A DNA stretch of 32,491 nucleotides, taken from positions 1 through 32,491 of the forward strand of contig QZIR01000060.1 in NCBI GenBank assembly GCA_003604975.1, written 5' to 3'. The notes below the pieces were generated by a model. That model ran no database searches. It saw nothing but the letters and a program-made list of their open reading frames with translations, and was not told the DNA's origin. Of the stretch, positions 4,282-26,310 are shown piece by piece (position 1 is the first letter of the stretch; each line of letters opens with the position of its first letter). Source of the DNA: Desulforudis sp. GTDB lineage: Bacteria; Bacillota; Desulfotomaculia; Desulfotomaculales; Desulforudaceae. A program made the position numbers and the translations under genes.

Positions 4282-4950
4282 ATGAATCGGCCTATGAGTC
4301 TCATCAAGTCAAGAAAACGCGTCGCTGACCATGGGGAGGTATTCACCCCCGCTTGGTTGGTCGAGGCAATGCTTGACCTCGTCAAGGGGGAGACCGAGCG
4401 TATTGACTCCCGTTTCCTGGAGCCGGCGTGCGGGAGCGGGCACTTCCTCACCCAGGTACTGCGTCGCAAACTCGCCGCCGTCGAACTCAAGTACGGGAAG
4501 TCCGGCTTTGCAAAGCGGCACCACGCCCTTCTCGCGTTGATGTGCACCTACGGCATCGAGCTCCTGACGGATAACATTGACGAGTGCCGTGCCAACATGC
4601 TGGAGATCTTTGCCGACTATTTGAACATTGAGGAGGCGGTCGACCTCTATCGAGCCGCTTCCTACGTGCTTTCGCAGAATCTTGTTCACTGTGATGCCTT
4701 GAAGATGCGAACCTGGAATGACCAACCGATCATCTTTGCCGAGTGGGGCACCCTTGGCAAGGGGAAGTTCCAGCGGCGTGATTTCCGTTTGGACGTGCTC
4801 ACTAAGGTTTCGTCCTTCATGGAGCAAAACCCGCTTCTCGCATGCCTTGGCAAGCACGAGATTTTCAAACCGGTCAAAGACTACCCGCCGATGACGATGA
4901 GTGACCTTGCCGCCATGCAGGAAAGTACTGGAGAGGAGGGGCGGGCATGA
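4282..4950 (+). CDS. N-6 DNA methylase-like protein (restriction subunit M type)
   Basis: This SAM-dependent methyltransferase-like protein has 222 residues from ATG 4282; GTG 4243 or ATG 4294 are alternative starts. It begins with the HGEVFTPAWLVEAMLDL segment seen in type I and type IIG methylases (the 'x-x-F-T-P' region), then motif I EPACGSGHFL (47-56) for SAM binding, and an acidic loop GIELLTDNIDECR. The expected catalytic NPPY/DPPY motif IV is absent: the segment after VHCDAL reads IIFAEWGTLGKGKFQRRDF. Short proteins like this are usually annotated 'restriction endonuclease subunit M'. It may be a complete small member of that family, or unable to methylate by itself. The stop overlaps the ATG of the AlbA_2 gene (ATGA), implying translational coupling. 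A full restriction partner is not visible. Confidence 0.75.
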   Translation: MNRPMSLIKSRKRVADHGEVFTPAWLVEAMLDLVKGETERIDSRFLEPACGSGHFLTQVLRRKLAAVELKYGKSGFAKRHHALLALMCTYGIELLTDNIDECRANMLEIFADYLNIEEAVDLYRAASYVLSQNLVHCDALKMRTWNDQPIIFAEWGTLGKGKFQRRDFRLDVLTKVSSFMEQNPLLACLGKHEIFKPVKDYPPMTMSDLAAMQESTGEEGRA

Positions 4951-6538: not shown

Positions 6539-7510
6539 ATGGGTAAAGAATTGACTGACGCATTTTTTCAGCTTATTGAAAAAATTCCTAGAGAAAAAAT
6601 AGGTACATTCCCTACACCTGTGAACCAAATACATCTTGGCAAGAATAGACATTTCTGGGTCAAGAATGATGGCTTATGCGGCAGTGAATATGGCGGCAAT
6701 AAGGTTCGGAAGCTTGAGTATCTGCTTCCCGCTATAAAAATATCCGGCCAAAATAAACTAGTGGTCCAGGGCGATGAAATGTCGCATACCGTGGCAGCCT
6801 GTTCGATTTATGGAAGAAAGCACGGGTTTAAGGTTACCGCGGTGGTTTTCCCTCATGGCCGGATGGACGAAAATGAAAACCTTCTTCCGGACCTTGTCCG
6901 GTCGGGTGTCAAGATTAAAAAAACATCGAATATGCTGACAGCATTGATGGTGGCCAAATTCATTTCGATGGTGCCTGGAAGTTATCTGGTTCCTTTGGGC
7001 GCAACCACACCCATTTCGACAATTGGTTATGTCAATGCGGCCCATGAACTCACGAAACAGATCGAAAGAGGAGAACTCCCACCGATAAAATATATATTCA
7101 TACCTTTTGCCACTGGAGGAACTGTGGCGGGTCTGTTGGCCGGTCTTGCTTTGCTTGATTCACCTATCAGGATAATTGCCGTGCAGTCCGTGGACGGAAT
7201 AATCGCCAACATGCGTTCATTGAAAAGGCTTTTGTCCGATGTTCTGTCGCTTACCGATCAAAGAAAATATTTAGACGCTGCGCTGGCCCGGCTGAAGACT
7301 CTTGATGCAAAATATCTGGGAAAAGGTTACCGGGATGTCACCTTTGAAAGCGTAGAGGCAATCCAACAGCTTGAACCCGCCGGTTTGCGGCTTGAAACCG
7401 CTTTTACCGCCAAGGCCATGGCAGCTCTATTATCTTCTGCGCATAAGCTTCAAGGCGATGAAATTCTTTTTTGGAATACTCATGATCAGGAATATTGTAA
7501 GGCCGGGTAA
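6539..7510 (+). CDS. PLP-dependent enzyme, ACC deaminase/D-cysteine desulfhydrase family
   Basis: This 323-residue protein is of the tryptophan-synthase-beta fold (fold type II PLP enzymes). GSEYGGNKVRKLEYLLP contains the Schiff-base Lys55 in the diagnostic GGNKxRKLE context of ACC deaminases and D-cysteine desulfhydrases. The phosphate-binding glycine loop is FATGGTVAGLLAG (about 190-202). Length agrees with the family (about 325-340). The usual 'QSNHxR' substrate loop is replaced by QGDEMSHTVAAC (77-88), so the substrate is probably not simply ACC or D-cysteine. It is the first gene after a good promoter and opens an eleven-gene same-strand run, so it likely supplies or processes an amino-acid-derived building block. 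Family call firm, substrate unknown. Confidence 0.88.
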   Translation: MGKELTDAFFQLIEKIPREKIGTFPTPVNQIHLGKNRHFWVKNDGLCGSEYGGNKVRKLEYLLPAIKISGQNKLVVQGDEMSHTVAACSIYGRKHGFKVTAVVFPHGRMDENENLLPDLVRSGVKIKKTSNMLTALMVAKFISMVPGSYLVPLGATTPISTIGYVNAAHELTKQIERGELPPIKYIFIPFATGGTVAGLLAGLALLDSPIRIIAVQSVDGIIANMRSLKRLLSDVLSLTDQRKYLDAALARLKTLDAKYLGKGYRDVTFESVEAIQQLEPAGLRLETAFTAKAMAALLSSAHKLQGDEILFWNTHDQEYCKAG

Positions 7511-7547
7511 TTTTACCAACCCAACTCAAAACATCGGGAGGTGGCAA

Positions 7548-8165
7548 ATGCATTATTATGTCCTTCGAGTCATGCTGACCGTAATTCTTGTTTTGTGCGC
7601 CGTTACGGCCGAAACTCAGGATATGCGAGAAAAGGATCATGAAGAATTAAGAACTCTTCTAGTAGAAGTGACGGACGCATTCAATAAGCGTGATACCGCT
7701 GCTTTGGCTGCATGTTTGACCAAGGAGTTCGTCTTTACCACGCTGGACCAGCAGGTCCTTACGTCTGCCGGCGAGATAGACGATTACTACAGAAAAATAT
7801 TCGATTCGCCGGATGCGTTTATTACCGATGCGAAAATATCCCCCGAGGCTTCTATATTGACAAGATTCACCGGTGCGAATAGCGGATATTGTTACGGTAT
7901 CAACCACGAGATTTATACAATGAAGGACGGCCGAACAGTCCCGATGGAAACGCATTGGACAGCCACGGTCATCAAAGAGGATGGCAGCTGGAAGATTGCG
8001 GCCGTCCACGCTGGTGTTAATTTTTTAGACAATCCAGTCATTGAACGAAGCAAAAATGTTGCAAAGAAGTTATCTGTAATGGGTTTTATCGCCGGGTTGA
8101 TAACGATGCTGATCCTGGTTGCTTTGATAAAAAAGATTAAATGTAAAAACAACAAAAAGGTATAG
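7548..8165 (+). CDS. SnoaL/DUF4440-like NTF2-fold protein with membrane anchors
   Basis: The open frame begins at 7371 inside the preceding gene, but ATG 7548 has a strong GGGAGGTGG Shine-Dalgarno and starts with a typical signal-like hydrophobic segment (VLRVMLTVILVLCAVTA), giving 205 residues. Residues about 30-155 resemble the NTF2-like DUF4440/SnoaL fold: LLVEVTDAFNKRDTAALAAC, FVFTTLDQQV, and a late strand GSWKIAAVHAGVNF. A C-terminal transmembrane helix (VMGFIAGLITMLILVALI) followed by many lysines suggests that the domain faces the periplasm and the tail the cytoplasm. Such domains act as small-molecule isomerases/cyclases or as binding proteins; none can be assigned here. Position in the cluster suggests a role in product modification or handling. 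Confidence 0.7.
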   Translation: MHYYVLRVMLTVILVLCAVTAETQDMREKDHEELRTLLVEVTDAFNKRDTAALAACLTKEFVFTTLDQQVLTSAGEIDDYYRKIFDSPDAFITDAKISPEASILTRFTGANSGYCYGINHEIYTMKDGRTVPMETHWTATVIKEDGSWKIAAVHAGVNFLDNPVIERSKNVAKKLSVMGFIAGLITMLILVALIKKIKCKNNKKV

Positions 8166-8254
8166 CGGCCATGCCCTAATAATTTGAAGTCAATCTGACA
8201 AATATTGTCTTTGATAATCAAGCAGTGAGGGCGACAGATACCATCTGTATAACG

Positions 8255-8947
8255 ATGAACCAACAGTTTGCAAACAGAAAAGAGCCACTATCCAGATGGC
8301 AGCAATTGGCAATGTTATTAATTAATGCCATTTCTTTGCTGCACCTCCTTATTCTTTTCTGCCTCATCTTTTTTGAATATGCTCCATTTATCCACCGCCT
8401 GCTCTATGGCATGGTCTTCCTCTATCTATGGCCGCCCTGCGCTGCCTCAGTGGTCAGAATGCTGTTCCCGATAAGAGAAAAGAGGCTCACTGTTTATTCG
8501 AAAGAATATTTCGTCTGGTGGACCTTGTTTAATCTTCAGGTGCTATTCATCCGCATGCCTTTTTTTGAGGAGTTCTTAAGATTCATACCAGGGCTTTACA
8601 GTACCTGGTTACGCCTATGGGGGGCAAAAATAGGCCGGCTGGTGTACTGGGCGCCGGGGACGACGGTGTTGGACCGATCGTTTCTGGATATTGGCGACCA
8701 TGTCATCCTGGGGGCCGGCGTACGGATAAATCCCCATGTTCAGATTTTGAATGAGGCGGGTGAAAACGAATTGCTTCTTGCATCGATAACAATAGGGGGT
8801 AATTCTGTTATCGGCGGGTACTCCCTGCTTACCTCCGGCACCGTTGTGGCCCCGGGAGAGAACCTTCGTGCCTTCACCCTTTCGGCTCCTTTTTCCCATT
8901 GGCAAAAAGGCAGGAGGCTCAAGAAAAGCATGGACGAATCGGCATAG
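8255..8947 (+). CDS. Membrane-anchored hexapeptide-repeat (LbH) acyltransferase
   Basis: From ATG 8255 the protein has 230 residues (a GTG at 8225 in frame is less likely). The first half has two to three hydrophobic helices (LAMLLINAISLLHLLILFCLIFF, MVFLYLWPPCAASVV). The second half is a left-handed beta-helix: WGAKIGRLVYWAPGTTVLDRSFLDIGDHVILGAGVRIN, then ITIGGNSVIGGYSLLTSGTVVAPG, with the I-G-x-x-x-x-I hexapeptide rhythm of serine acetyltransferase and WcaF-type O-/N-acyltransferases. It probably transfers an acyl group from CoA at the membrane. It lies 89 bases after the NTF2-like gene and three bases before the amidohydrolase gene. Acyl donor and acceptor are unknown. Confidence 0.82.
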   Translation: MNQQFANRKEPLSRWQQLAMLLINAISLLHLLILFCLIFFEYAPFIHRLLYGMVFLYLWPPCAASVVRMLFPIREKRLTVYSKEYFVWWTLFNLQVLFIRMPFFEEFLRFIPGLYSTWLRLWGAKIGRLVYWAPGTTVLDRSFLDIGDHVILGAGVRINPHVQILNEAGENELLLASITIGGNSVIGGYSLLTSGTVVAPGENLRAFTLSAPFSHWQKGRRLKKSMDESA

Positions 8948-8950
8948 AGA

Positions 8951-9901
8951 ATGACCACCGGAATATATGATATTCATGTCCACCTGCCCGACCCTTTTGC
9001 CTTGATTCGATACTCGCAAACCGGAAAGAAACGTTTTTTCATGCGTATCCTGCTTCGCAGGCTGAAGAAAGGCTCAAGGGTACTTGGAACGGAAGTCGTT
9101 GAGAGACACAACCTGGAGGTCATCCGCAAAATAGAGTCGAGCATGCTGAGCCGTGCCGTGGTGCTTGCTTTTGACAAGGCTTGCGATGAATCCGGCAATC
9201 CGGTGGGAGAATTCACCTGCACGAATGAGTTTGTGTCTCGACTCTGCGGTCGGAGCAAAAAACTTCTGTTCGGCGCCAGTATCCATCCGTATCGTAAAGA
9301 TGCATTGCAAACACTGCAGCAGTGTGTCGAGGATGGCGCGTGTCTGGTGAAATGGCTGCCGTCGGCCCAGAATATTGATCCGGAAGACTCTCGCTGCCAC
9401 CCCTTTTACGAAATGCTTGCCTCCAGCAAAGTGCCCCTGTTATGCCATACAGGCAATGAGCACATCCTTGGAAATCGACACAGTGAATTCAATGATCCGC
9501 TAAAGCTGCGAACAGCCTTACGTAAAGGGGTGAAAGTAATTGCCGCCCACTGCGGGGCACGGCTGCTGCTGCATGAACGCTCTTATTTTGACACCTGGAA
9601 AAGATTGGCCTTGGAGTTCGAGAACTGTTATGGCGATGTCAGCGCCTTTATCCTGCCAACCAGAGTGCACCTGCTCAAACAACTGAGGAATGACCGCGAT
9701 TTGTGTTCCAAGGTTCTATTCGGCTCTGATTATCCGGTTGTTCCAAGTCTCAACAGCTGCCTTTTGCACTTGGGATACAAAAATGTCAGGAAATTGAGAA
9801 AAGAAATGAACGAATTCAACAGAGCAATAGGTGCATTGCGGGAGTTAGGTATGCCGGATTGTATATTTACAAAAGCGAGCGAGATTTTGAAGGTCTGCTG
9901 A
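8951..9901 (+). CDS. Amidohydrolase-related TIM-barrel metalloenzyme
   Basis: The 316-residue protein matches the amidohydrolase_2 family. Metal-binding positions are visible in order: YDIHVH (Asp7, His9, His11), LLCHTGN (His166), IAAHCGAR (His200) and FGSDYPVV (Asp260). A KWLPSAQNI segment near residue 134 is where ring-opening relatives keep a conserved lysine. The family includes decarboxylases of ACMSD type and lactone/amide hydrolases; the mono-metal DxHxH-H-H-D pattern fits either. It starts three bases after the preceding stop and its stop is two bases before the next ATG, so it is certainly co-transcribed with the rest of the cluster. The substrate cannot be inferred. Confidence 0.85.
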   Translation: MTTGIYDIHVHLPDPFALIRYSQTGKKRFFMRILLRRLKKGSRVLGTEVVERHNLEVIRKIESSMLSRAVVLAFDKACDESGNPVGEFTCTNEFVSRLCGRSKKLLFGASIHPYRKDALQTLQQCVEDGACLVKWLPSAQNIDPEDSRCHPFYEMLASSKVPLLCHTGNEHILGNRHSEFNDPLKLRTALRKGVKVIAAHCGARLLLHERSYFDTWKRLALEFENCYGDVSAFILPTRVHLLKQLRNDRDLCSKVLFGSDYPVVPSLNSCLLHLGYKNVRKLRKEMNEFNRAIGALRELGMPDCIFTKASEILKVC

Positions 9902-9903
9902 TA

Positions 9904-11064
9904 ATGCTGAATATTGCGAAGCAGGGATGGCATTTACCATGGAAAGGAAGGCTGGTGCCCCATGCGCTTATAGATATCACTCGGCAATGTAATGTCACAT
10001 GCCGTTCCTGCTACAACGACGGCAACTGGGAATCGAAATCTCTCAGCAGCATAAAAAATGAAATTGAAACGCTTATCTCCCTACGCAAACTCGATTCTGT
10101 ATCAATCATCGGCGGCGAGCCTACACTCCACAAGGATCTTTTTGCAATTATAGAATATCTCACAGCCAACGGACTCCACTCGGAACTGTTCACCAATGGG
10201 CTTCTCCTGGATGATGCATTGGCCCGGGAGCTCAAACAGGCCGGTCTTGGATGCGTATTTTTGCATGTCCAGGAAGATCAGGATCGACCCGACCTGGATA
10301 AACGGAATCCGCGGCAGTCCATGAAAAGACTGCTCGATGAAAAAACATCCCTGTTAAAAGGACACGGGCTGGAGGTAGGACTGTCTTATACATTTCATAA
10401 CGACAGAGAAAGCGAACTTCAGTGGATGTTGGACTACTGCCTTGAAAATGCATCGCTCGGGTATCTGTTGGTGACAATGGATACGGATGTGAAAAACATG
10501 ATTCCAGTAAAGGGCGACATCTTCCAAGGCATGCGAATAGTTGCTCGCCATGTACCGCAACGCAGCGGTGATTCCGCGCCCTCTATTCTCAATGCCGCGG
10601 AACGCATGATCGTGGGTAAGGATTTCGTGCCGTTCGGTTATCTGGGGTCGAATATGGATGTTTTATCGCCTAGATGGATGTCGTTTATGGTTCTCTGTGC
10701 TTATGACGCGGGAAATCTCATGGGCCAGGTTTCGTTAAAGGCAAGCTACCTGGAAAAGGGTTACCTGCAAATTGCCCGGCTGCTGAAGGGCAAATACCCC
10801 TTTTATGGCAACCAGAAAGAAAAGAACCTCAAACTTCAGCTTTTTCTGAACAGTTTTCTGGGCGGACGGCTCAACCGTAACCTGCGATTTCTTGGGGATT
10901 CTCTCAAGCGGAAATATGCCATAAAGGCGAAGAAGATTTTGCTGCAGGCACCGGCCTGCATTGATGATTCCGGCAAGGTGGTGCATTGTGCCAATTGTCC
11001 GGATGCCGTCTTGAAAAACGGCAAAATGGTCCCGGTCTGTATTTCGGACAAGGTCGGGGTATAA
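9904..11064 (+). CDS. Radical SAM enzyme with C-terminal cysteine cluster
   Basis: The protein has 386 residues from ATG 9904, two bases after the preceding stop. DITRQCNVTCRSCYND holds the CxxxCxxC cluster motif (Cys29, Cys33, Cys36) for the 4Fe-4S of radical SAM enzymes, and SIIGGEPTLHKD (about 68-79) is the SAM-binding GGEP motif. The C-terminus has four further cysteines (about 352, 362, 365, 379) in a PAC...HCANCP...VC pattern, which could bind an auxiliary iron-sulfur cluster as in SPASM-like enzymes. It generates a 5'-deoxyadenosyl radical; the substrate is unknown. It precedes two B12-type radical SAM genes; three such enzymes in a row are strong evidence for an unusual small-molecule pathway. 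Confidence 0.88.
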   Translation: MLNIAKQGWHLPWKGRLVPHALIDITRQCNVTCRSCYNDGNWESKSLSSIKNEIETLISLRKLDSVSIIGGEPTLHKDLFAIIEYLTANGLHSELFTNGLLLDDALARELKQAGLGCVFLHVQEDQDRPDLDKRNPRQSMKRLLDEKTSLLKGHGLEVGLSYTFHNDRESELQWMLDYCLENASLGYLLVTMDTDVKNMIPVKGDIFQGMRIVARHVPQRSGDSAPSILNAAERMIVGKDFVPFGYLGSNMDVLSPRWMSFMVLCAYDAGNLMGQVSLKASYLEKGYLQIARLLKGKYPFYGNQKEKNLKLQLFLNSFLGGRLNRNLRFLGDSLKRKYAIKAKKILLQAPACIDDSGKVVHCANCPDAVLKNGKMVPVCISDKVGV

Positions 11065-11065
11065 A

Positions 11066-12445
11066 ATGAAGATTCTCCTGGTCATGCCGGATGCCCAGAT
11101 GCACAAGATCAGACTGGGACCACTTGTCCGCTCCATGCGAGAGATGCCCCTGTCGATTTGTACCCTGGCCTCGCTCACTCCCATGTATCCGGACATCGAT
11201 CTCCGGCTTGTCGATGGAAGCGTGGAAAATGTACCCCTGGATTACGATGCCGACCTGGTTGGTATAAGCATTATTACAGGATGTGCGAACAGGGCGTACG
11301 CCATTGCCGATCATTTCAGAAAAAGAAAAATTCCGGTGGTTCTTGGCGGGGTTCATGTAACCCTGCTGCCCGGTGAGGCGATGCAACATGCCGATTCCAT
11401 CGTGATAGGCCGTGCGGAGCAGACATGGCCGCAACTCATAGAGGATTTCAGAGCAGGCAGCCTGAAAGATATCTATCTGGAGCACGAATTGACGGGGGAC
11501 ATGCTCTATAGCGTTCCACCGCCACGCCGGGATCTCCATAAAAGATCGCGCTACATGATTCCGGATTCCGTGCAGGCGACTAGAGGTTGCAAAAAGGCAT
11601 GCGATTTCTGCACGGTCCCGGCTGTTTGGCCAAAATTTCTCAAGCGTCCAGTAGAAGATGTCATTCAGGATGTACAACTGACAAAGGGGAAATATATCGC
11701 CTTTAACGATGTCAGCATTGCCGAAGACATCGATTATGCAAAAGAACTGTTCAGGGCCATGATCCCTCTCGGAAAACGGTGGGGAGGTCTGGCCACCATA
11801 AATATCATGAAGGATCCGGAGTTGCTTTCGTTGATGAAAGCCAGCGGCTGTGTGTATTTGCTTTTCGGATTCGAATCCAATGATCGCCCCACCCTCACCA
11901 GCATGGGCAAAGGTTTCAACCTGTCCATGGCGTATGATGAAATAATGCATGTCATGCGAGGGCTGCGCATCAGTGTTCAGGGATGCTTTGTCTTCGGTTT
12001 TGACCATGACACCAGGGAAGTATTTGCCAACACGGTGGAGCGGGTGAATGAACTGGGAATTGATATCCCGCGCTTTTCATTATACACGCCTTATCCCGGT
12101 TCCCTATTATTCAAGCGACTCTTAAAGGAAAACCGGATTCTGAGCTTTAACTGGGATGATTACGACACCATGCATGTGGTTATTCAGCCGTCGCAGATGA
12201 CACCTGAAGAGCTCTACCAAGGGTTCAAATGGGCCTATCGGGAAGCATTCAAAATTAGGCATATAAGGAAGCGCATGAAGGGACTCACCTGTAATTCTAT
12301 TATCAACTTTTTCGGAAATCTGACGTACAAGATTTTTGTGCGTAGACTATTTAACGAACAGAAATACGCCTTGCCCTATTCGACGCACGATCCCGGTGGC
12401 GCTCCGGATGATACCTTCTACCGAGACAGGTTTCTGGAGAATTGA
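11066..12445 (+). CDS. B12-binding-domain radical SAM protein, copy 1
   Basis: The protein has 459 residues. The N-terminal 130 form a Rossmann-like cobalamin-binding-type domain (KILLVMPD, DADLVGISIITG, IPVVLGGVHVTLLPGEAM, DSIVIGRAEQTWPQL). The radical SAM core follows with SVQATRGCKKACDFC (Cys175, Cys179, Cys182) and later LLFGFESN and CFVFGFDHDT. The DxHxxG cobalamin-ligand motif is not present, as in several class B radical SAM enzymes that bind B12 without a lower His ligand. Members methylate unactivated carbons or catalyse ring rearrangements. The start lies one base after the previous stop. The next gene is a diverged paralogue, pointing to two successive related steps. Confidence 0.9.
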   Translation: MKILLVMPDAQMHKIRLGPLVRSMREMPLSICTLASLTPMYPDIDLRLVDGSVENVPLDYDADLVGISIITGCANRAYAIADHFRKRKIPVVLGGVHVTLLPGEAMQHADSIVIGRAEQTWPQLIEDFRAGSLKDIYLEHELTGDMLYSVPPPRRDLHKRSRYMIPDSVQATRGCKKACDFCTVPAVWPKFLKRPVEDVIQDVQLTKGKYIAFNDVSIAEDIDYAKELFRAMIPLGKRWGGLATINIMKDPELLSLMKASGCVYLLFGFESNDRPTLTSMGKGFNLSMAYDEIMHVMRGLRISVQGCFVFGFDHDTREVFANTVERVNELGIDIPRFSLYTPYPGSLLFKRLLKENRILSFNWDDYDTMHVVIQPSQMTPEELYQGFKWAYREAFKIRHIRKRMKGLTCNSIINFFGNLTYKIFVRRLFNEQKYALPYSTHDPGGAPDDTFYRDRFLEN

Positions 12446-12446
12446 C

Positions 12447-13787
12447 ATGCCCCGACTGATTCTGATTTACGCCAGCATGGGTAGGGCACCGGGCCGGAAA
12501 TTTGTCCGAAGCTGGCAGCAGGAACCATTGGCCATGGGGGTGCTTGCCGCTTTAACCCCTGCGGAATGGGAGGTTGTTTTTTTCGATGACCGGGTTGAGG
12601 CGATAGATTACTCGCTGCAGGCAGACCTCGTTGGGATTTCGATTGAGACGTACAGCGCCAAACGCGGGTACCAGATTGCGGCAAAATTCAGAAAAAACGG
12701 CGTTCCGGTAATTTTCGGCGGTTACCATGCCACACTGTGCCCCGACGAGGCCATTGAACATGCCGACAGCGTCTGTGTCGGTGAGGCGGAGTCTCTCTGG
12801 CAAGGAATCCTTGATGATGCTCTGCACAGCCGACTCGCCAAGCGATACAAAGGTGTTACTGTCAACCCTTTGAAGGATATTCCCGTCGATCGCTCGTTAT
12901 TTGCCGGAAAAAGATACTTGAAGCTGTCACTGATAGAGACCGGCAGGGGATGTCCGTTCAAATGCAATTTCTGCTCCATCAATGCGTTTTACAAATCCAC
13001 CTACAGGCGGAGATCGATCGCCGATATCATTAAGGAAGTATCAGCAGTGGAGAATAAATACATTTTCTTTGTTGATGATAATTTCACCGGCGATATCGCT
13101 TCCGCCAGGGAGCTTTTCAGGGAAGTCAAACAGTATCGAAAGAGATGGATGACACAGCTCAGCGTAGCGGGGTTGACCGATAGAGATTTCGTTCAGGAAA
13201 TGGCCGCCAGTGGTTGTATAGCCGTGTTGATCGGTTTTGAGTCCCTGGATGGGCTGAACCTCAACAGTATGAACAAGTCGGTCAACAGATTGGATGAGTT
13301 CAGTAGAATATTGAGTAATCTCAGGGAAGTAGGAATATTTGTATACGGTACCTTTGTATTCGGCTATCCCCATGACACGGCAGACCTCTACGGGCGAACC
13401 GTTGCCTTCGCCCAGGAGGAAAAGATGTTTATTGCCGCTTTCAACCATCTTGTGCCATTCCCGGGAACCGCCCTCTACCGGGAACTGGAGGCGGCGGGGA
13501 AGATGCGATATGACAAATGGTGGCTGAGTGATGAGTATTATTTTGGTGAAGTGCCTTTCAAACCCGAGACCATGACCGCCAAAGAAGTTGAAGAACGGTG
13601 CCTTTTAGCCAGAAAACAATTTTATTCCATCCCGTCCATCATGAGACGAGCCCTGGACGGGAAATGCAATTGTGGTTCTGCCCGGAATATTCTCACCTAT
13701 GTCCAGATAAACCACATGCTCCGTAAAGAGGTGACTGAAAAAAGAGGGGTAAGGCTGGGTTTTCGCGAAGGGACCAATGCCACCTGA
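12447..13787 (+). CDS. B12-binding-domain radical SAM protein, copy 2
   Basis: From ATG 12447, one base after the preceding stop, the protein has 446 residues (the longer upstream frame runs inside the preceding gene and is unlikely). The N-terminal cobalamin-binding-type domain shows ADLVGISIETYSA, VPVIFGGYHATLCPDEA and SVCVGEAESLW. The SAM core has ETGRGCPFKCNFCS (Cys169, Cys173, Cys176), IFFVDDNFTGD, VLIGFESL and FVFGYPHDT. It is colinear with copy 1 along the whole length, so the pair is a tandem duplication that has diverged strongly. It again lacks DxHxxG. Its end overlaps the following GNAT-like gene by 11 bases. Function is likely C-methylation or radical rearrangement of the cluster's product. 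Confidence 0.9.
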   Translation: MPRLILIYASMGRAPGRKFVRSWQQEPLAMGVLAALTPAEWEVVFFDDRVEAIDYSLQADLVGISIETYSAKRGYQIAAKFRKNGVPVIFGGYHATLCPDEAIEHADSVCVGEAESLWQGILDDALHSRLAKRYKGVTVNPLKDIPVDRSLFAGKRYLKLSLIETGRGCPFKCNFCSINAFYKSTYRRRSIADIIKEVSAVENKYIFFVDDNFTGDIASARELFREVKQYRKRWMTQLSVAGLTDRDFVQEMAASGCIAVLIGFESLDGLNLNSMNKSVNRLDEFSRILSNLREVGIFVYGTFVFGYPHDTADLYGRTVAFAQEEKMFIAAFNHLVPFPGTALYRELEAAGKMRYDKWWLSDEYYFGEVPFKPETMTAKEVEERCLLARKQFYSIPSIMRRALDGKCNCGSARNILTYVQINHMLRKEVTEKRGVRLGFREGTNAT

Positions 13788-14877
13788 AATAACTGTAAGA
13801 TATGCCTCGCCGGAAGATGACGCCGGTATCGTTGCCCTCATGTCACGACTCACGATGCCCGGGAAGATAGGCCTTGGCTACCGGTATGAACCTTCTTTTC
13901 TTTCCGCCCTTTCGGTCGAGGGAGACAACCCGATAGTAGTGGTTGCCGAGCAGGGCGGGGAAATTCGCGGCGTGGGGTCAGTTCTGACTCGCGAGGTATT
14001 CCTTAATGGCGAGCCGGCACAGGTCGGGTATCTCTCATCCCTGCGGCTTGCTCCGGATATCCAGGGAACTTCGGCACTGGCTCGCGGGTTTCGATTATTC
14101 AGAGAAGCAGATGAAACGAAATTGCATGTTCCTTTTTACCTCACATCCATCCTGGCTGATAACCATGCAGCCATAAAAATTCTGACCAGACAGAGGGCGG
14201 GCTTGCCTCGCTACCGCCTTCTGGCTAACTATAGAACCATCATCATTCCCGTCATGCGGCGGAAAAGACTTCCTGCCGGAAAAAAGATATTGCATGGAGA
14301 GTGTATTGATGCCGACATTATCCTGCAATGCCTGGAGAGATATGGCAAAGAGAAAAACTTCTTCTCCCGTTTCAGACTTCGGGATCTGCTAGACAGTACC
14401 GGCATGATGCAAGGACTGCGAGCGGCGGATTTCCTGGTTGCCCTGGATGGTGACGAGCCAATCGGTGTCCTTGGACTGTGGAATCAATCAGCATTCAAAA
14501 AACTGATTATTAAACAATATTCGAGAGGACTGCGCTTGCTCAGCACCATGCTGGGCGCAATCGGCAAATCACCATTACTCCCCCCGGAAAATCGGCCGTT
14601 CTCTCCTGTATATCTGTCCTGTGTGGCGGTAAAAAATAATGATCAGGCAATATTTAGACAATTATTGCAGGCGGCTATTAATACGGTGTATGCGACTGAA
14701 ACAGATTCAAAAGTATTGATTGCCGGTTTTTTCGGGGATGATCGGTTGGCTCAAGTAGCCATGTCCTTTATTCATTTATCATTTCAAAGCAATATATACA
14801 CTGTAGGGTGGAATGATAATTTTGATTTGGATAACTTTAAGGCATCTCCCAAATATATTGATATAGGGAGTTTGTGA
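13777..14877 (+). CDS. GNAT-like acyltransferase (long form)
   Basis: This 366-residue protein begins with a recognisable GNAT half: ITVRYASPEDDAGIVALMSRL, then VVVAEQGGEIRGVGSVLTRE, then VGYLSSLRLAPDIQGTSALARGF, which is the 'V-x-x-L-x-V-x-P-x-x-R/Q-G' acetyl-CoA-binding strand-helix. The second half (FLVALDGDEPIGVLGLWNQ, VYLSCVAVKNND) looks like a further degenerate GNAT repeat, as in tandem-GNAT proteins. The usual glycine-rich P-loop is weak (DIQGTS). It overlaps the preceding radical SAM gene and lies 14 bases before another acyltransferase-like gene. It would acylate an amine on the pathway product, or confer self-protection. The family assignment is moderately sure. Confidence 0.68.
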   Translation: MPPEITVRYASPEDDAGIVALMSRLTMPGKIGLGYRYEPSFLSALSVEGDNPIVVVAEQGGEIRGVGSVLTREVFLNGEPAQVGYLSSLRLAPDIQGTSALARGFRLFREADETKLHVPFYLTSILADNHAAIKILTRQRAGLPRYRLLANYRTIIIPVMRRKRLPAGKKILHGECIDADIILQCLERYGKEKNFFSRFRLRDLLDSTGMMQGLRAADFLVALDGDEPIGVLGLWNQSAFKKLIIKQYSRGLRLLSTMLGAIGKSPLLPPENRPFSPVYLSCVAVKNNDQAIFRQLLQAAINTVYATETDSKVLIAGFFGDDRLAQVAMSFIHLSFQSNIYTVGWNDNFDLDNFKASPKYIDIGSL

Positions 14878-14891
14878 AATAAGGACGCCGG

Positions 14892-15617
14892 ATGGCAATT
14901 TTATCAGAAATAGTTCCTACATCACAGCTTTCCGAACCGGATGTCCGGGATATGTTTGCCTTGATGCGGATGTACTTCGATGGGGTTCGCGAAGATATTT
15001 TCCAGAGAGATCTTTTCGAAAAGGAATGGGTCGCGCTATTACGTGATGCCAGCACGACGGAAATTTGTGGATTCTCGACAATTGCCGTGTTGAAGGACGT
15101 TGTTGACGGACAAATAAATAAAGCGGTCTATTCGGGAGACACGATTGTCAGAAAGGAGCACCGGCAGGCCTTTTCGCTGGAAACGGTATGGATACCCTTT
15201 GTTTTTTCCCTGGTGCAAGCCGAGCCTGATATCGATTGGTATTGGTTTTTGGTTTGCAAAGGATACAGAACCTACAGATATCTCCCTGTTCATTTCAAAC
15301 GTTTCTGGCCTTCTCCCGATGACTCGGTGCCTCCCAGGGAAAAAAGAATCCTGGATAGGTTCGCCCTGAAAAAATTTGGTGATTTTTATTTTCCCGAGAG
15401 CTATACGATTAAGTGCCCTGAGGACTACCGGCTCAAAAAGGGAGTGAGCGACATTACGCCTGCAAAGCGAAAAAACAGATATGTCGATTTTTTTGTGCAA
15501 AGCAATCCCGGTTGGTATCGAGGGGATGAGTTGGCATGTATAGTGCCGCTTAGTCTCGGGAATATTAAGTCGACCCTGCGACGAATTCTGAGTTCCCACT
15601 CCACTTTCACCCCATGA
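14892..15617 (+). CDS. GNAT-like/hypothetical protein in biosynthetic cluster
   Basis: The protein has 241 residues. The N-terminal part (VRDMFALMRMYFDGVREDIFQRDLFEKEWVALL, then ICGFSTIAVLKDV, then AVYSGDTIVRKEHRQ) follows the order of helices and strands of GNAT acyltransferases, and the 'SGDTIVRKEHR' strand is placed where the CoA-binding strand would be. The middle segment YWFLVCKGYRTYRYLP recalls the 'gfk.y..l' end of GNAT domains. No catalytic residue can be assigned. It starts 14 bases after the long GNAT gene and its stop overlaps the ATG of the GH3 gene (ATGA), so it is translated together with both. I regard the GNAT call as tentative. Confidence 0.55.
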   Translation: MAILSEIVPTSQLSEPDVRDMFALMRMYFDGVREDIFQRDLFEKEWVALLRDASTTEICGFSTIAVLKDVVDGQINKAVYSGDTIVRKEHRQAFSLETVWIPFVFSLVQAEPDIDWYWFLVCKGYRTYRYLPVHFKRFWPSPDDSVPPREKRILDRFALKKFGDFYFPESYTIKCPEDYRLKKGVSDITPAKRKNRYVDFFVQSNPGWYRGDELACIVPLSLGNIKSTLRRILSSHSTFTP

Positions 15618-17284
15618 AACATATTGGTGCCAATCTACTCTCCGGGATATTTTCCGCAAATGAAGCTGTACATTTCAGAAATGCCACCCGGGATGTCAAA
15701 GCCGCCCAGACCGCGATTCTGCTAAAGACTCTATCCGAAAACAAACTTACCGCGTGCGGCAAGACATACAAATTCGAGACGATAGACTCTTATCGGGAGT
15801 ATAGACAGCGGGTGCCGCTGGTCGAGTATGATGATATCCGTCCCAGCATCGACAGGATACTGGCTGGAGAAGCAGACATACTTTTCGCAGGCCGTCCGCT
15901 TTGCCTACAACCTACTTCCGGGACAACCTCCGGCCGGAAATTCATCCCTTTCAACCACGCCCTGCGGAAGCAATTTCAACGCGGCGTCGCGACATGGATT
16001 TTTGATTTATTCGCCCACGAACATAGTCTGGTTGCAGGAAAATGGTTCTGGTCTTTGTCGCCAGTTGGAATGCAGGCGCAAAGCGGTCAAGCTAAAGTTC
16101 CCGTTGGTTTCCTGGACGACACCGGATACCTCGGTCCTGTTCTGGGGCCGCTGCTGAAAAAATCCTTTGCCGTGCCTTCCGAAGCGGCAACTATCCAGGA
16201 CAGTGAGATGTTTCGTTATGTCTCCATGGCCTTTCTGCTGAAAGAAGCGGACCTGGTTTTGATATCCATTTGGAATCCAAGTTATTTCACCCTCCTGCTG
16301 GAATCAATTGACAACAATATAACCGGCATAATCCGCGACATACATACCGGCCATCTATCGCTCGACACCCGAACCCCTGAGAAGCTGCGTGGTTATCTCC
16401 AAAGGCAATTTGGTGGTGCCAACCGTTCCAGGGCGATGGAGCTCGATACCCTCTTTCAAAAATATGCGGATCGAAAAGCACAACTCTACAAAGGTATCTG
16501 GCCGCGGCTACGGCTTCTCAGTTTGTGGGAAGATGCAGAGGCAAAGGGGCCTGCGGCAAGATTGGGCCGGCTTTTTCCCTCGGTCTTCATCCAGCCCAAA
16601 GGTCTTATTGCCACGGAGGGGATGGTGTCCATCCCGCTATTCCGCCCTATCCAGCGTCTGCTTTCAATCAGGTGCCATTTCTATGAATTCATTCCGGTGG
16701 AGAACGAGACGGAAGCGGTTCCCGCCTGGAAGCTGGATGCAGGGCGCTATTATAAAGTCGTCGTCACCACCGCAGGCGGACTTTATCGGTACAAGCTGAA
16801 TGATATCGTTAAGGTACGAGGCTTTTTCAACGAATGCCCGTGCCTTGAATTCCATGGAAGAGGAAACCTGACATCAGACTTTTATGGCGAAAAACTGCAC
16901 CAATTATTTGTAGCGAAAATCATAAACACCGTGCTGTCAGACATGGATGTTTCCGCCTATTTTATCCTACTGGCCCCCGACGGTGTGGGCCATGTTGATC
17001 ATTATACTTTGTACATCGCCTGCGACAGTCCGATTACGAGGGTAAAGCTTGATGAAATCCGGGAGCAGTTCGAAACGGAGCTCAAGAAAAATATCCATTA
17101 CGATTATTGCATAACATTGGGACAGCTCCGGGATATGGAAATCTGTTACATTCACCAAAGTGTCGATTGGGCTAACAGCATCTTCTTGTCGGTGATGAAA
17201 AACAGAGGGTTCAAGGATGGCGATATCAAGCCGGCGGTTCTTGACAACCAACCCGTATGGAAAAAGGAATTCTCAATTCAATGA
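15614..17284 (+). CDS. GH3-family acyl-adenylating amide synthetase
   Basis: The protein has 556 residues, normal for GH3 ('auxin-responsive promoter') enzymes. The first ATP-binding motif LQPTSGTTSGRKFIPF (98-113) is diagnostic. Later motifs are also present: PKGLIATEGMVSIPL, then TTAGGLYRYKLNDIVKVRGF, corresponding to the nucleotide-contacting 'GLYRYxxxDVV' segment. In plants GH3 enzymes activate a carboxylic acid as acyl-AMP and couple it to an amino acid; bacterial members are few and mostly uncharacterised. In this cluster it is the only clear ATP-dependent bond-forming enzyme and probably makes an amide between the modified acid and an amine. The start overlaps the preceding stop by four bases, and the stop overlaps the ATG of the membrane gene. 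Confidence 0.92.
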   Translation: MKHIGANLLSGIFSANEAVHFRNATRDVKAAQTAILLKTLSENKLTACGKTYKFETIDSYREYRQRVPLVEYDDIRPSIDRILAGEADILFAGRPLCLQPTSGTTSGRKFIPFNHALRKQFQRGVATWIFDLFAHEHSLVAGKWFWSLSPVGMQAQSGQAKVPVGFLDDTGYLGPVLGPLLKKSFAVPSEAATIQDSEMFRYVSMAFLLKEADLVLISIWNPSYFTLLLESIDNNITGIIRDIHTGHLSLDTRTPEKLRGYLQRQFGGANRSRAMELDTLFQKYADRKAQLYKGIWPRLRLLSLWEDAEAKGPAARLGRLFPSVFIQPKGLIATEGMVSIPLFRPIQRLLSIRCHFYEFIPVENETEAVPAWKLDAGRYYKVVVTTAGGLYRYKLNDIVKVRGFFNECPCLEFHGRGNLTSDFYGEKLHQLFVAKIINTVLSDMDVSAYFILLAPDGVGHVDHYTLYIACDSPITRVKLDEIREQFETELKKNIHYDYCITLGQLRDMEICYIHQSVDWANSIFLSVMKNRGFKDGDIKPAVLDNQPVWKKEFSIQ

Positions 17285-17943
17285 TCCATAAATTTCAGAG
17301 AATATTTTTAGATATATTGATTTTCTGGTTACCGGTACCGGTGACTCTGATAATGACCAACATCTGGTGGCGGGAGACGAAGAGTCTTATGATCACATCA
17401 ACGGCAGTCGGCTTACCGCTGCTTTATGGATACGTAATTCCGGGTATAGGGATAAATATCTTACAGAATTGGCGTTTCACCAACGGTGTTCGGATTGGCG
17501 GAATGTATCTGCATCACGGTTTTATGTATGCTTCGAAGATGAGTTTTTTTGGTTTTATACCATTGTTATTATCGATTGCCAGCGTGCATGATTCAGATGG
17601 CTATATATATTGGGTTATCATTTCGACAACTCTTTATGCCTCGACCGCATGGCTTCAGGATTATTTGAGTCATAAATTCGGATATGTTGTTTTCCACGAA
17701 AAGAGAGGTAAAGACAGTAAAGTGAAAGAGAATGCATCGCTTAGATATGCGCCCATATGTTTCCCAATTATCGGGTCTATATATTCCATCAGTCTAGTCG
17801 CCGCGTGCAAAATATACTTGTTTGATGTTTTTCCGCAGACAAGTTTTGTTGGATTTTTCGTGCTCTCTTTTCTTGCGATGGCAACAATTCCATCCATAGC
17901 ATATGGTTTGCTTACCAAAAATGAACTGCGGCGGACCAAATGA
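17281..17943 (+). CDS. Polytopic membrane protein, last gene of cluster
   Basis: ATG 17281 overlaps the GH3 stop (ATGA) and gives 220 residues; an in-frame ATG at 17257 is less likely. About six hydrophobic segments are visible (ILIFWLPVPVTLIMTNIWW; a long one around VGLPLLYGYVIPGIGINIL; SFFGFIPLLLSIASV; YWVIISTTLYASTAW; ICFPIIGSIYSISLVAACKIYL; VGFFVLSFLAMATIPSIAYGLL). A histidine pair MYLHHGF and a conserved-looking SHKFGYVVFHEKRGKDSK loop sit between helices. I do not recognise the family. Its position at the end of the cluster suggests export, or a membrane-bound modification step such as desaturation or hydroxylation. Confidence 0.65.
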   Translation: MIHKFQRIFLDILIFWLPVPVTLIMTNIWWRETKSLMITSTAVGLPLLYGYVIPGIGINILQNWRFTNGVRIGGMYLHHGFMYASKMSFFGFIPLLLSIASVHDSDGYIYWVIISTTLYASTAWLQDYLSHKFGYVVFHEKRGKDSKVKENASLRYAPICFPIIGSIYSISLVAACKIYLFDVFPQTSFVGFFVLSFLAMATIPSIAYGLLTKNELRRTK

Positions 17944-18120: not shown

Positions 18121-19455
18121 TCACCCCGCTCCCGATGGTAAAAACTCCACCGCATCTTCCAGCCCCAGGGCGCGATACTCCACCTGGTACCCCTGATATT
18201 CCTGCAAAAGCCGTTCAGCCTTGTGCTGCAGGGCTGGCAAGCTGATCCTGGATTTGTTCCGTTTGATCTCGGCAATGACCAGTTCTTTGCGCAGGTCGTT
18301 CACTGCAACCAGGTCGATCTCGTTTTTGTTGCCGCGCTCCCAGTAGCTACCGATCCGGTTATACTTACCGCTGGCGGCATACAGGTCGTGAAAGAAGCAC
18401 TCCAGGATCTTGCCGGACCAGGTGGCGTAATCGCGCTCGATGATTTCACGAACATAACCGAAGTTGCCGGTCTCGACCGCTGACAGATTGCGGTAGATAA
18501 AGCGGAACCAGAAACTGAGAAAATTATCCCGCAGATAATATTTCTGCAGCCGGCCACCTGGCTTGGCGTTGATCGGGCGGTGCTTGGCAATCAGGGCATA
18601 TTCGTCTTCCAGCTTGGCCAGGTATGCCCCGCTGTGGATTTCCAGTACCGATTCGATTTCGCTGCGGGCTGTTTTGCCGACGGCTATCAGTTCGAGTATG
18701 GAGAAGTAGGTGCCGTATTCTCTTCCGAACTCTTCCACCAGCAGGTTTTTTCCTTCAGCAAGAAAAGGTGAATGCGGCTTGAGAATGAAGTCGAGCATCT
18801 TCTTGTGTGTCAGTGACTTGTTCTCGGCCAGCATCTCCAGGTATTTGGGGAGGCCGCCGGTAATGGCGTAGCTGTCGAACAGGGACCGGATATCACGGTG
18901 ACCATGATCAACCAGGACTTCATGAATAGCGGCAATGCTGAACGGCTTGAGGAAGATGATCCGGTCAGCCCGGCCGAAGAGCGGTTCCTTGGCATCCTGA
19001 AAGATGCGGTGCATGAGAGAGTGTACCGAACCGATGCAGATAAGGTTCAGTTTGCAGGTTGCCTTGTTACGGTCCCAGATTCCCTGAATCTCGGAATAGA
19101 CCGACGGATTGATGCTGAAGAACTCCTGAAACTCGTCAATGATCAGGGTAATGCGTTCGGTGCGGGAAAGCTCAATCAGCAGGGTAAAGATGTCACGGAA
19201 GTTACGGATATCGCCGATGACCGGCAGGGTGTCGATACGTCGGATCTCTTCAAGGTATTCCTGACAGAGAAGGGCTTCCGCCTTGCGGGAGACAAACAGG
19301 TAGAGTTGCCTGGCCGATTTTGCCGATTCGAGAGCCAGGATCGTTTTACCGACCCTGCGGCGACCGGTGATAACCGTCATCCTGCCTGATGATGCCGATT
19401 GGTCATGGAGGTTGGCCAGCTCTTCAAGTTCGCTGACACGATTGTAGAATTTCAT
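18121..19455 (-). CDS. AAA-type ATPase with C-terminal DUF234 nuclease-like domain
   Basis: From ATG 19455 the protein has 444 residues (a further six residues are possible from 19473). It is of the 'archaeal ATPase' class: FYNRVSELEEL at the start, Walker A GRRRVGKT (31-38), Walker B TLIIDEFQEF, a sensor-type CIGSVHSLMHRIFQDAKEPLFGRA, and the family's ITGGLPKYLEML. The C-terminus (GNKNEIDLVAVNDLRKELVIAEIK) is the DUF234 domain, whose E-x-D-x(n)-E-x-K core is shared with restriction-type nucleases. These proteins are common in archaea and in anaerobic bacteria and are thought to be mobile or toxin-antitoxin-like, but the function is unproven. It is on the opposite strand to the biosynthetic cluster. 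Its upstream region holds an inverted repeat that may be an operator. Confidence 0.88.
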   Translation of the reverse strand: MKFYNRVSELEELANLHDQSASSGRMTVITGRRRVGKTILALESAKSARQLYLFVSRKAEALLCQEYLEEIRRIDTLPVIGDIRNFRDIFTLLIELSRTERITLIIDEFQEFFSINPSVYSEIQGIWDRNKATCKLNLICIGSVHSLMHRIFQDAKEPLFGRADRIIFLKPFSIAAIHEVLVDHGHRDIRSLFDSYAITGGLPKYLEMLAENKSLTHKKMLDFILKPHSPFLAEGKNLLVEEFGREYGTYFSILELIAVGKTARSEIESVLEIHSGAYLAKLEDEYALIAKHRPINAKPGGRLQKYYLRDNFLSFWFRFIYRNLSAVETGNFGYVREIIERDYATWSGKILECFFHDLYAASGKYNRIGSYWERGNKNEIDLVAVNDLRKELVIAEIKRNKSRISLPALQHKAERLLQEYQGYQVEYRALGLEDAVEFLPSGAG

Positions 19456-19461
19456 CTGCTG

Positions 19462-19495
19462 AACCACCGTCAATATTTTGATAGTAATGGTGGTT
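19462..19495 (-). promoter_or_regulatory. Inverted repeat before the AAA/DUF234 gene
   Basis: AACCACC at 19462-19468 pairs with GGTGGTT at 19489-19495 around an AT-rich centre that itself contains the half-sites TCAA and TTGA. It starts seven bases before the ATG at 19455, so a protein bound here could block translation or transcription start. The repeat is seen directly; operator function is inferred. Confidence 0.35.
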
Positions 19496-19549: not shown

Positions 19550-20341
19550 TTACAGATCGATGACCAAGCTTTTATCGAACTGTGGATTGACTTCCACATC
19601 CTTGTAGCCGTAGGGGTTTACTACCACCCGGGTATTGCCGAGTGTGTAGTCGAATGAGTTGTGAGTATGGCCATGTACCCAGAGAACCGGTCCAAGATCG
19701 ATGATATCGTTGGAAATGTCGGTCATGAAGGCGCAGTTGAGGCTGTCTCCCCGGAAGCGCGGATGAATGGACAGGGGTGACACCCCATGGTGTGTCACCA
19801 CGACGGTCTTTCTACCGCTGGCGGTTGCCAATGTATCGAAGATGTACCGTTTCGATATCTGGAAAAGGTCGACCGTCTCCTCAGGCATGAGTCGTGTCCC
19901 GTCAGGCTTTTTGATCACGACAAAGTCGTTCATGTTTTTCCGGGCGTACTGCATCTTGAAGAAGTCTTTCCCCTGAAAATCCGTCCAGAGCATTGTCCCG
20001 ATAAAGATGACACCGTTGATTTCAACCGATTCGTTTTCAAGAAAGTGAACGTTCTTGGGGAGCGAGACTTTGATTTTCAGCTCCGGGATACGTCCAATGT
20101 AGTCGTTGTGATAGAAAAAGTGATTCCCCTCCACATAAATGACTGCCAGAAAACGCTTGGCTAGGAGGCTGACAACCTTGAGCCAGGTTTCCTGCCGGTG
20201 GGCCAACCCGATGTCGCCGGCAACCAGAGCAACGGTTTCCTGATCAGTCGGCAGCGGTGGGACCACCAGGCCGAGAATACGATCAATCTTGTTTGCTTGC
20301 CAGAACTCAGCATGAAGATCGGAAAAGGGGCGGACTAGCAT
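19550..20341 (-). CDS. Metallophosphoesterase (calcineurin-like)
   Basis: ATG 20341 is chosen because GGAG lies five bases upstream; it gives 263 residues. (A TTG at 20368 would add nine.) The full metallophosphoesterase motif set is present: FSDLHAEF (Asp8, His10), VAGDIGLA (Asp43), VEGNHFFY (Asn73, His74), VVTHHGVSPL, and WVHGHTHNS near the C-terminus. It would use two metal ions to hydrolyse phosphodiesters or phosphomonoesters; the substrate (nucleotide, nucleic acid or phosphoprotein) is not predictable. It lies between the AAA/DUF234 gene and the integrated element's hypothetical genes, all on the minus strand, and is probably cargo. Confidence 0.9.
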   Translation of the reverse strand: MLVRPFSDLHAEFWQANKIDRILGLVVPPLPTDQETVALVAGDIGLAHRQETWLKVVSLLAKRFLAVIYVEGNHFFYHNDYIGRIPELKIKVSLPKNVHFLENESVEINGVIFIGTMLWTDFQGKDFFKMQYARKNMNDFVVIKKPDGTRLMPEETVDLFQISKRYIFDTLATASGRKTVVVTHHGVSPLSIHPRFRGDSLNCAFMTDISNDIIDLGPVLWVHGHTHNSFDYTLGNTRVVVNPYGYKDVEVNPQFDKSLVIDL

Positions 20342-21668: not shown

Positions 21669-22586
21669 TCAGCGCCGGCCCTGGTAGTGTTTCGTGATCT
21701 CCGCCCGCTCGTGGCCGATCTCCCGGCTGACCTCGGCGAGGGCCCGCTCCCAGGTTTTTCCCTCCAAGAGTTTTTCCTGAAGGCGATCCTGCGCCCACCG
21801 ATGCCGGAAGGAATGAGGACTCCCCTTGTCATTGGCAGCTTCGGAGGCACGAGCAACGGCGTGCCTGTACGCGTCGCGGCTCACCCGCAACTCCCCGGAT
21901 TGTTTCATGCGAGCGACAAGCTGCTGATAGGTATCGCGCGAGAGCTCGGCCACTCGGATTTTCCCGCCTTTGCCTCGAACCTCGATCTTTCCCTCGCCTT
22001 TGAGCTGGTCAGGTCGAACATGGGTCGCCTCTGACATTCTGAGGCCGGCATCGTGCTGAATGGCAGCTGCCAGTCGGAAGTCCGGATGGGGGAGGAGAGA
22101 GATGACCCGATCCGGATCTCGGAAGGCGCGGCCGGGAACCATCGAGGCAAGCCCCTTTGCTTCCGGGCTGACCTGCAGGATCGCGGAGCGGAAGTCGTAG
22201 CCCAACCCGGTGCCTTTAGCCTCGGCATAGGAACGCAGGGCGTCCTCAAGCTTCCCGAGAGCGCTCGCTGCCTGCCCATAAGTCTGGCGCCCCACGTCTT
22301 CGTCGATCCGTAAACGAAGAAACGAAGAAACGTGCTCACCGGCCAGCTTTTCGATGTCCGTGACCCGGAACGTGGATTTTGCGTGATCAAGACATTGCCG
22401 CCAGACCTTGAGATACGCCTCCTTGGTCCGGAAGGAGTGAATTCCGGTCTTCTGAGCCACCTCGGAGGAGGTCCGGGCGCCTGCGGCCCAGGCCTCCTCC
22501 TTGGCGGCGTGACGTGGTTGGCCGATCCGGTCGATACCGGAGACCTTATAGACTTCCTGGGCCTGCCATTTGCTGGAGCCTCGCAT
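21669..22586 (-). CDS. Tyrosine recombinase/integrase
   Basis: The protein has 305 residues with all catalytic positions visible: Arg183 in HDAGLRMSEATHV, Lys207 in RGKGGKIRV, His258 and Arg261 in PHSFRHRWA, His292 in EIGHERAEIT and the nucleophile Tyr301 in TKHYQGRR at the extreme C-terminus. The N-terminal half (about 45-150) is a SAM-like core-binding domain (FRTKEAYLKVWRQCLDHAKS). A GAGGAGGA box lies before the ATG. It belongs to the replication-recombination block of an integrated element next to tRNA-Arg, although it is not directly next to the tRNA: the replication genes lie between. It may integrate the element or resolve multimers of it. Confidence 0.93.
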   Translation of the reverse strand: MRGSSKWQAQEVYKVSGIDRIGQPRHAAKEEAWAAGARTSSEVAQKTGIHSFRTKEAYLKVWRQCLDHAKSTFRVTDIEKLAGEHVSSFLRLRIDEDVGRQTYGQAASALGKLEDALRSYAEAKGTGLGYDFRSAILQVSPEAKGLASMVPGRAFRDPDRVISLLPHPDFRLAAAIQHDAGLRMSEATHVRPDQLKGEGKIEVRGKGGKIRVAELSRDTYQQLVARMKQSGELRVSRDAYRHAVARASEAANDKGSPHSFRHRWAQDRLQEKLLEGKTWERALAEVSREIGHERAEITKHYQGRR

Positions 22587-26233: not shown

Positions 26234-26310
26234 TGGTGGGCGAGGCGGGATTCGAACCCGCGACCTTTGGCTTCGGAGGCCAACACTCTATCCAGCTGAG
26301 CTACCCGCCC
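26234..26310 (-). tRNA. tRNA-Arg (anticodon CCG)
   Basis: The 77-base minus-strand sequence folds into a full cloverleaf: acceptor GGGCGGG with CTCGCCC (one G-U pair), D-arm AGCTCAGCTGGATAGAGT, anticodon stem TTGGC/GCCAA around the loop CTCCGAA (anticodon CCG), T-arm with GGTTCGAATCC, and an encoded CCA. It lies downstream of the glutamate synthase operon on the same strand with its own promoter. Its 3' end faces the replication-integrase block, a typical integration target. Confidence 0.97.

Follow-up and report, generated by a model that had tools for sequence, protein, structure and literature searches.

A widespread GH3, GNAT and B12 radical SAM gene cluster in Desulforudis sp. as a candidate pathway for a modified acyl amide

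GH3 enzymes couple acids with amines via acyl-adenylates, and OlsH, a characterized bacterial GH3, makes N-acyl ornithine (PMC12493201). In the OlsH/OlsI pathway of Singulisphaera acidiphila, OlsH joins a fatty acid and an amine with ATP, and its authors suggested other N-acyl amino acids as products of other bacterial GH3s (PMC12493201). A member of the same broad family is encoded on contig QZIR01000060.1 of Desulforudis sp. (32,491 nucleotides; this whole stretch is referred to as the window), within a run of 11 consecutive plus-strand open reading frames (ORFs) spanning 6539-17943. In a first-pass annotation, this run had been read as a single cluster making an amide with a radical modification; the enzymes present fit such a product, and the cluster is conserved far beyond this genome. 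The conservation of a core, genes 6 to 10, across phyla, the intact GH3 and radical SAM motifs and the predicted GNAT folds of genes 8 and 9 were observed directly. Judging from sequence, we put at roughly 55% the probability that genes 6 to 10 belong to a widespread, apparently undescribed family of biosynthetic gene clusters, with genes 2 to 5 as an optional tailoring module and a modified fatty-acyl amide (aminolipid) as the product. The genes are as follows.

6539..7510, +: gene 1, PALP-fold pyridoxal phosphate-dependent enzyme of the D-cysteine desulfhydrase/ACC deaminase/D-cysteate sulfo-lyase group (PF00291, E 4.6e-22)
7548..8165, +: gene 2, SnoaL/NTF2-like (DUF4440) protein (PF14534, E 4.1e-10)
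8255..8947, +: gene 3, membrane-associated left-handed beta-helix (hexapeptide) protein, putative acyltransferase (PF00132, E 4.2e-6, slightly under cut-off)
8951..9901, +: gene 4, Amidohydro_2 metal-dependent hydrolase (PF04909, E 1.3e-8)
9904..11064, +: gene 5, radical SAM enzyme without a B12 domain (PF04055, E 5.2e-16; CNVTCRSC at residue 29)
11066..12445, +: gene 6 (B6), B12-binding radical SAM enzyme, core (PF02310 and PF04055; CKKACDFC)
12447..13787, +: gene 7 (B7), B12-binding radical SAM enzyme, core (PF02310 and PF04055; CPFKCNFC)
13777..14877, +: gene 8 (N8), tandem-GNAT acyltransferase of NMT-like architecture, core (weak Pfam GNAT match; predicted structure)
14892..15617, +: gene 9 (N9), single-domain GNAT-fold protein without a Pfam family, core and best marker (predicted fold)
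15614..17284, +: gene 10, GH3 acyl-acid amido synthetase, core (PF03321, E 2.2e-46; PF23571, E 6.5e-22)
17257..17943, +: gene 11, membrane protein without an assigned family (no Pfam or NCBIfam match)

The starts, stops, gaps and motifs of these genes were checked by script. From gene 1 to gene 11 the intergenic gaps are 37, 89, 3, 2, 1, 1, -11, 14, -4 and -28 bases. The tight packing claimed in the first-pass annotation therefore holds from gene 3 on, with genes 4 to 11 nearly without gaps, but genes 1 to 3, with 37 and 89 bases between them, are looser than claimed. The families assigned to all 11 proteins, among them three radical SAM, two GNAT-type and one GH3, were borne out by Pfam and NCBIfam (gene 9 is treated below). 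The earlier statement that nonribosomal peptide synthetase, polyketide synthase and terpene genes are lacking holds for the 11 proteins by their Pfam and NCBIfam domains. A precursor of a ribosomally synthesized and posttranslationally modified peptide was likewise not found among them, very short ORFs not having been searched for precursor peptides. The best NCBIfam model for gene 1 was CuyA, at 102 bits, far under the 450-bit cut-off. The gene 3 protein is similar to the terminal domain of Pls/PosA (E 1.9e-7), and the gene 2 protein likely has a signal peptide and a C-terminal membrane anchor, its topology having been judged by eye.

OlsH was the sole NCBIfam match of gene 10 (E 8.5e-16), which raises the possibility that the cluster carries out a variant form of GH3-dependent ornithine-lipid synthesis; the N-acyl amino lipid made by OlsH/OlsI is also similar to the kind of product proposed here. 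However, the match reached only 57.5 bits against the 620-bit OlsH cut-off, and the cluster has no OlsI-type alpha/beta hydrolase. The described neighbors of OlsH are an N-methyltransferase and an alpha/beta-hydrolase acyltransferase, with no radical SAM or GNAT partner mentioned in the OlsH paper (PMC12493201). We therefore consider an ornithine-lipid variant improbable.

Recurrence of the core across bacteria

Scanning 84,980 species genomes with a profile of gene 9 yielded 376 relatives; the best 80 of these were retained and inspected. Profiles of the 11 proteins were then mapped on these 80 gene 9 loci and on nine other loci, with ORFs in the related loci called mechanically. The GH3 protein alone, used as the query on the same species-genome collection, found nothing. 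Within 6 kb of gene 9, a GH3 gene was present in 67 of the 80 loci and gene 8 in 66, the two occurring together in 63. B12 radical SAM genes were found within the same distance in 59 loci, in up to five copies. As many contigs end close to the cluster, all of these counts are low estimates. The loci with a GH3 gene carried 12 phylum-level labels, chiefly Bacillota, Planctomycetota and Pseudomonadota. Recurring gene orders included B6-B7-N8-N9-GH3 and, in Clostridia, B6-B7-B7-N9-GH3-B6-B7-N8. One of the loci (L042) belongs to Peptoclostridium litorale DSM 5388, which can be cultured. Relatives of genes 6 to 9 also flanked the GH3 relatives found on plasmids and in the same phylum, and most Bacillota versions appear limited, in their visible part, to radical SAM genes, gene 9, GH3 and gene 8.

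One even sample of the window's phylum, comprising 398 genomes, gave the same picture. The cluster type of GH3 (E <= 1e-40) and gene 9 (E <= 1e-20) were found in an identical set of five genomes, representing five families; if the two were independent, the chance of an identical five would be about 1e-11 (one divided by the number of ways of choosing 5 of 398). The gene 9 profile, built from 75 diverse rows, held members from four of these five genomes. Gene 8 was present in the same five and in two more of the 398. One genome of this sample (G208) is also among the mapped loci (L032, Clostridiales bacterium PH28_bin88).

The first-pass annotation had named as its refutation the finding that homologues are never clustered elsewhere; this was tested and failed to refute the cluster, as the core recurs in about a dozen phyla. 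Its eleven-gene unit stands in part, with genes 6 to 10 as the core and genes 2 to 5 as a second module. Genes 3, 4 and 5 occur together in a Lentisphaerae locus (L087) and a Planctomycetota locus (L045), with gene 2 adjoining in the former, at 39 to 55% identity (gene 3, 50 to 55%; gene 4, which adjoins genes 3 and 5 in both, 41 to 42%; gene 2, 43% in L087). Relatives of gene 2 were identified in 21 loci and those of gene 5 in 9. The linkage of genes 1 and 11 is weak, and their membership is uncertain: a gene 1 relative lies beside the core in one other locus only (L084), while a weak relative of gene 11 (27% identity) lies beside the cluster in L030 and another beside that in L061.

The little conserved linkage of genes 1 and 11, together with the SIR2-like, restriction-methylase-like and integrase genes on the island that carries the cluster, would fit a loose accretion of cargo on a mobile island rather than one pathway. 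Against this stand the joint recurrence of genes 6 to 10 in many phyla and of genes 3 to 5 in two, and the nearly gapless run from gene 4 on, and we regard such an accretion as very unlikely for the eleven genes as a whole. A random assemblage is ruled out for genes 6 to 10 by their recurrence together across phyla, genes 1 and 11 being excepted.

A minimal unit of gene 9, GH3 and gene 8 without radical SAM genes was found in Acinetobacter baumannii and Burkholderia arboris. In A. baumannii (L028, 6548-13912), HlyD and MFS genes come first, followed by gene 9, then GH3, an outer-membrane efflux gene and finally gene 8. Both A. baumannii records of this kind are labeled plasmids yet are about 4 Mb.

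In Citrobacter portucalensis from a gull, a mobilizable IncFIB/IncFII plasmid (L019; NZ_CP134684.1, 51417-62583) carries gene 9, GH3, gene 8, five radical SAM genes, PAP2 and a desaturase gene; no close copy of this cluster was found in E. coli genomes. Relatives of gene 9 were seen on Azospirillum replicons (NZ_CP012915.1, 20613-21251, and seven other records, among them L120). Two metagenome-assembled genomes of Mucispirillum (L077 and L079) have the gene order of Clostridia, which suggests transfer between gut phyla.

Core proteins and proposed mechanism

All three GH3 domains were recognized in gene 10, the C-terminal one (PF23572, E 1.2e-4) at 23.2 bits versus a cut-off of 23.6. The GH3 nucleotide motifs are intact (TSGTTSGRK at 101, ATEG at 333 and LYRYKLND at 390). 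In a phylogeny with long branches flagged by the program, the cluster GH3s formed one clade (SH-aLRT 99), separate from ten general bacterial GH3s and a Streptomyces GH3. The GH3 of the window groups with copies from Armatimonadetes and Cyanobacteria UBA8530, which points to transfer between phyla. In four loci (L050, L054, L082 and L099) an AMP-binding ligase adjoins gene 9 and no GH3 was found; the ligase of L099 is related to FlxY and BagE/FevW.

The proteins encoded by genes 6 and 7 have a B12-binding domain followed by a radical SAM domain with CxxxCxxC, both PF02310 and PF04055 scoring above cut-off, and the cysteine motif is intact in all three radical SAM proteins of the cluster. The domain order is that of the HpnJ/BchE/PhpK group, and HpnJ was the best NCBIfam match of both (85 and 101 bits, respectively). 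Unlike members of that group, genes 6 and 7 fall far under the curated cut-offs and form two clades of their own, one on either side of a branch in the radical SAM tree, with copies in sister clusters. Further paralogue clades lie inside both, of which the window keeps one copy each. Gene 6 shares 64% identity with an Armatimonadetes copy (L031).

The most diagnostic parts of the cluster are gene 8, with its invariant C terminus, and gene 9, with no Pfam family. The AlphaFold2 model of gene 8 (predicted local distance difference test score [pLDDT], 93.8) aligned structurally as two adjacent GNAT domains spanning the protein. Its comparison with N-myristoyltransferase (NMT; 4uwi) gave a VIA-align Z of 22.9 and a root mean square deviation (rmsd) of 3.6 over 301 residues. 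The likeness to NMT consists of a tandem GNAT arrangement along the full length of gene 8, with an alignment reaching its last residue, and a fixed C-terminal end. The differences are an identity of about 10% and the absence of any implied protein substrate, and the likeness is known from a predicted model. The catalytic base of human NMT1 has been described as the carboxylate of its C-terminal residue, Gln496 (PMC7048800). Nearly all homologues of gene 8 stop right at [ED]-x-[AG]-x-[LVI], and the tail past the last 90%-conserved column was 0 residues in 69 of 69, compared with standard deviations of 7.1 to 11.9 for the tails of genes 9, 10, 6 and 7. This fixed end suggests that the C-terminal carboxylate of gene 8 is its catalytic base, as in NMT. 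Two points weigh against a specific tie to NMT. The bacterial tandem GNAT 7q3a was a near-tie at fold level (Z 21.8), and Eis acetyltransferases likewise use a C-terminal carboxylate. The suggestion thus concerns mechanism, not NMT membership, as NMT is not singled out.

For gene 9, the term "GNAT-like" in the first-pass annotation was supported by the predicted fold and not by a sequence family. The AlphaFold2 model (pLDDT, 96) had a GNAT fold, with a best Foldseek E value of 5.7e-6 and, against 4ua3, a Z of 12.3 and an rmsd of 3.0 over 155 residues. Z values were about 12 to NatD, GCN5 and AAC(2'). Pfam gave nothing convincing in 75 members, the best match being Acetyltransf_9 (E 0.0072) in three members only and none for the window protein, and sequence profiles against the PDB returned no meaningful relative. 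The invariant residues include S81-G82-D83-T84 and C216. N-acyl-homoserine lactone synthases share the GNAT fold (LasI, 1ro5; Z 11.1, among many GNATs). Gene 9 differs from LasI in lacking a Pfam family in those 75 members and in having a GH3 or AMP-binding ligase gene alongside in most loci.

In the mechanism that we propose, the GH3 protein would activate a carboxylic acid as an acyl-adenylate and couple it to an amine. Gene 8 would acylate an amine with acyl-CoA as the donor, its own C-terminal carboxylate serving as the base in the manner of NMT, and gene 9, a putative GNAT, may perform a further acyl transfer. Unactivated carbons would be altered by the two B12 radical SAM enzymes, C-methylation being the default guess for a B12-binding radical SAM enzyme; BchE-type and HpnJ-type enzymes perform chemistry other than C-methylation. 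Genes 2 to 5 might act in tailoring, at the membrane or close to it. The minimal machinery would then be GH3, gene 8 and gene 9, with the radical or oxygen-dependent enzymes acting as tailoring.

Clues to the product

Among the relatives, chiefly aerobic ones, FA_desaturase genes were found in 14 loci, Rieske oxygenase genes in 14 and PAP2 genes in 13, and AurF-like proteins and P450 genes also occur. Loci of the L068 group encode FA_hydroxylase as well as an amidohydrolase carrying an Mpo1-like (2-hydroxy-palmitate dioxygenase) domain. The lipid genes of the relatives, the AMP-binding ligase of loci in which no GH3 was found and the minimal set of A. baumannii together favor an acyl amide, with a lipid as its somewhat likelier form.

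Several observations count against the aminolipid. The lipid hints stem from relatives, not from the window, and the relatives inspected are only the best 80 of 376. Most Bacillota versions appear to have no lipid gene in their visible part, and a hydrophilic acyl amide fits these versions equally well. AurF-like, Rieske and P450 genes, moreover, occur in small-molecule pathways too. A serious rival is a soluble, exported small-molecule amide (a signal, a siderophore-like compound or an antibiotic) with short or amino acid-derived acyl groups. It would account for the HlyD, MFS and outer-membrane efflux genes that lie with the three core genes of A. baumannii, for the resemblance of the AurF-like, P450 and BagE/FevW-related ligase genes of relatives to those of small-molecule pathways, and for the fold that gene 9 has in common with LasI, as with many GNATs. 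However, FA_desaturase, PAP2, FA_hydroxylase and Mpo1-like genes are present in many aerobic relatives, and the gene 2 and gene 3 proteins look membrane associated; on balance, we hold a soluble product to be the less likely of the two, and a modified fatty-acyl amide is preferred.

A broader and more tentative proposal, which we rate at somewhat short of even odds, is that these loci represent an unrecognized class of bacterial natural products, in which GH3, a new GNAT-fold family and an acyltransferase that, like NMT, has its own C-terminal carboxylate as base would make an acyl amide. Its unactivated carbons would then be remodeled, in anaerobes by two to five B12 radical SAM enzymes and in aerobes by iron enzymes that depend on oxygen. 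In the openly licensed literature searched, no description of this system was found, and an earlier account elsewhere is possible; for Acinetobacter, the same literature gave only a drug-target survey and no description of the system. If the reading is correct, the pathway, which is without the signature genes on which cluster finders depend, would be common to hundreds of bacterial species, including gut Clostridia, planctomycetes, cyanobacteria and some A. baumannii. It would provide a three-gene minimal system for asking how GH3 and GNAT enzymes share amide formation, and it would offer a bacterial enzyme of NMT-like architecture together with up to five B12 radical SAM paralogues in one pathway.

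Two fusion proteins were seen in gene 9 loci. The amidohydrolase with the C-terminal Mpo1-like domain lies near gene 9 in L068 (6430-8535), with related proteins in L053, L100 and L102. In L073 (5315-8071), an RnfD/NqrB-like membrane domain is fused to FG-GAP repeats and a UnbV/ASPIC domain, and its relatives occur in eight gene 9 loci.

Carrying island and flanking genes

The GC content is 0.48 in the cluster and 0.63 past a tRNA-Arg gene, and the cluster looks like part of an integrated tRNA-Arg island, judging by the following features and by more mobile element-like genes between the cluster and the tRNA.

21669..22586, -: tyrosine recombinase of the island (PF00589, E 5.4e-7)
26234..26310, -: tRNA-Arg(CCG), probable integration site, with core genes past it (ARAGORN)

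A search by script for an attachment or tRNA-derived repeat at the island's far end found none. One genome of the same genus and six of the same family were searched and gave no GH3 match, which fits a recent gain of the cluster.

SIR2-like and DNA methylase-like genes lie to the left of the cluster. The SIR2-like protein (2654-4153) matched PADLOC Aga_SIR2 (E 5.5e-34) and is followed by a short DNA methylase-like ORF (4243-4950) with a partial match to type II/IIG methylases, possibly a remnant. To the right of the cluster, both on the minus strand, are an ATPase_2/DUF234 protein (18121-19473; PADLOC candidate PDC-S27, 5.9e-45) and a calcineurin-like phosphoesterase (19550-20368).

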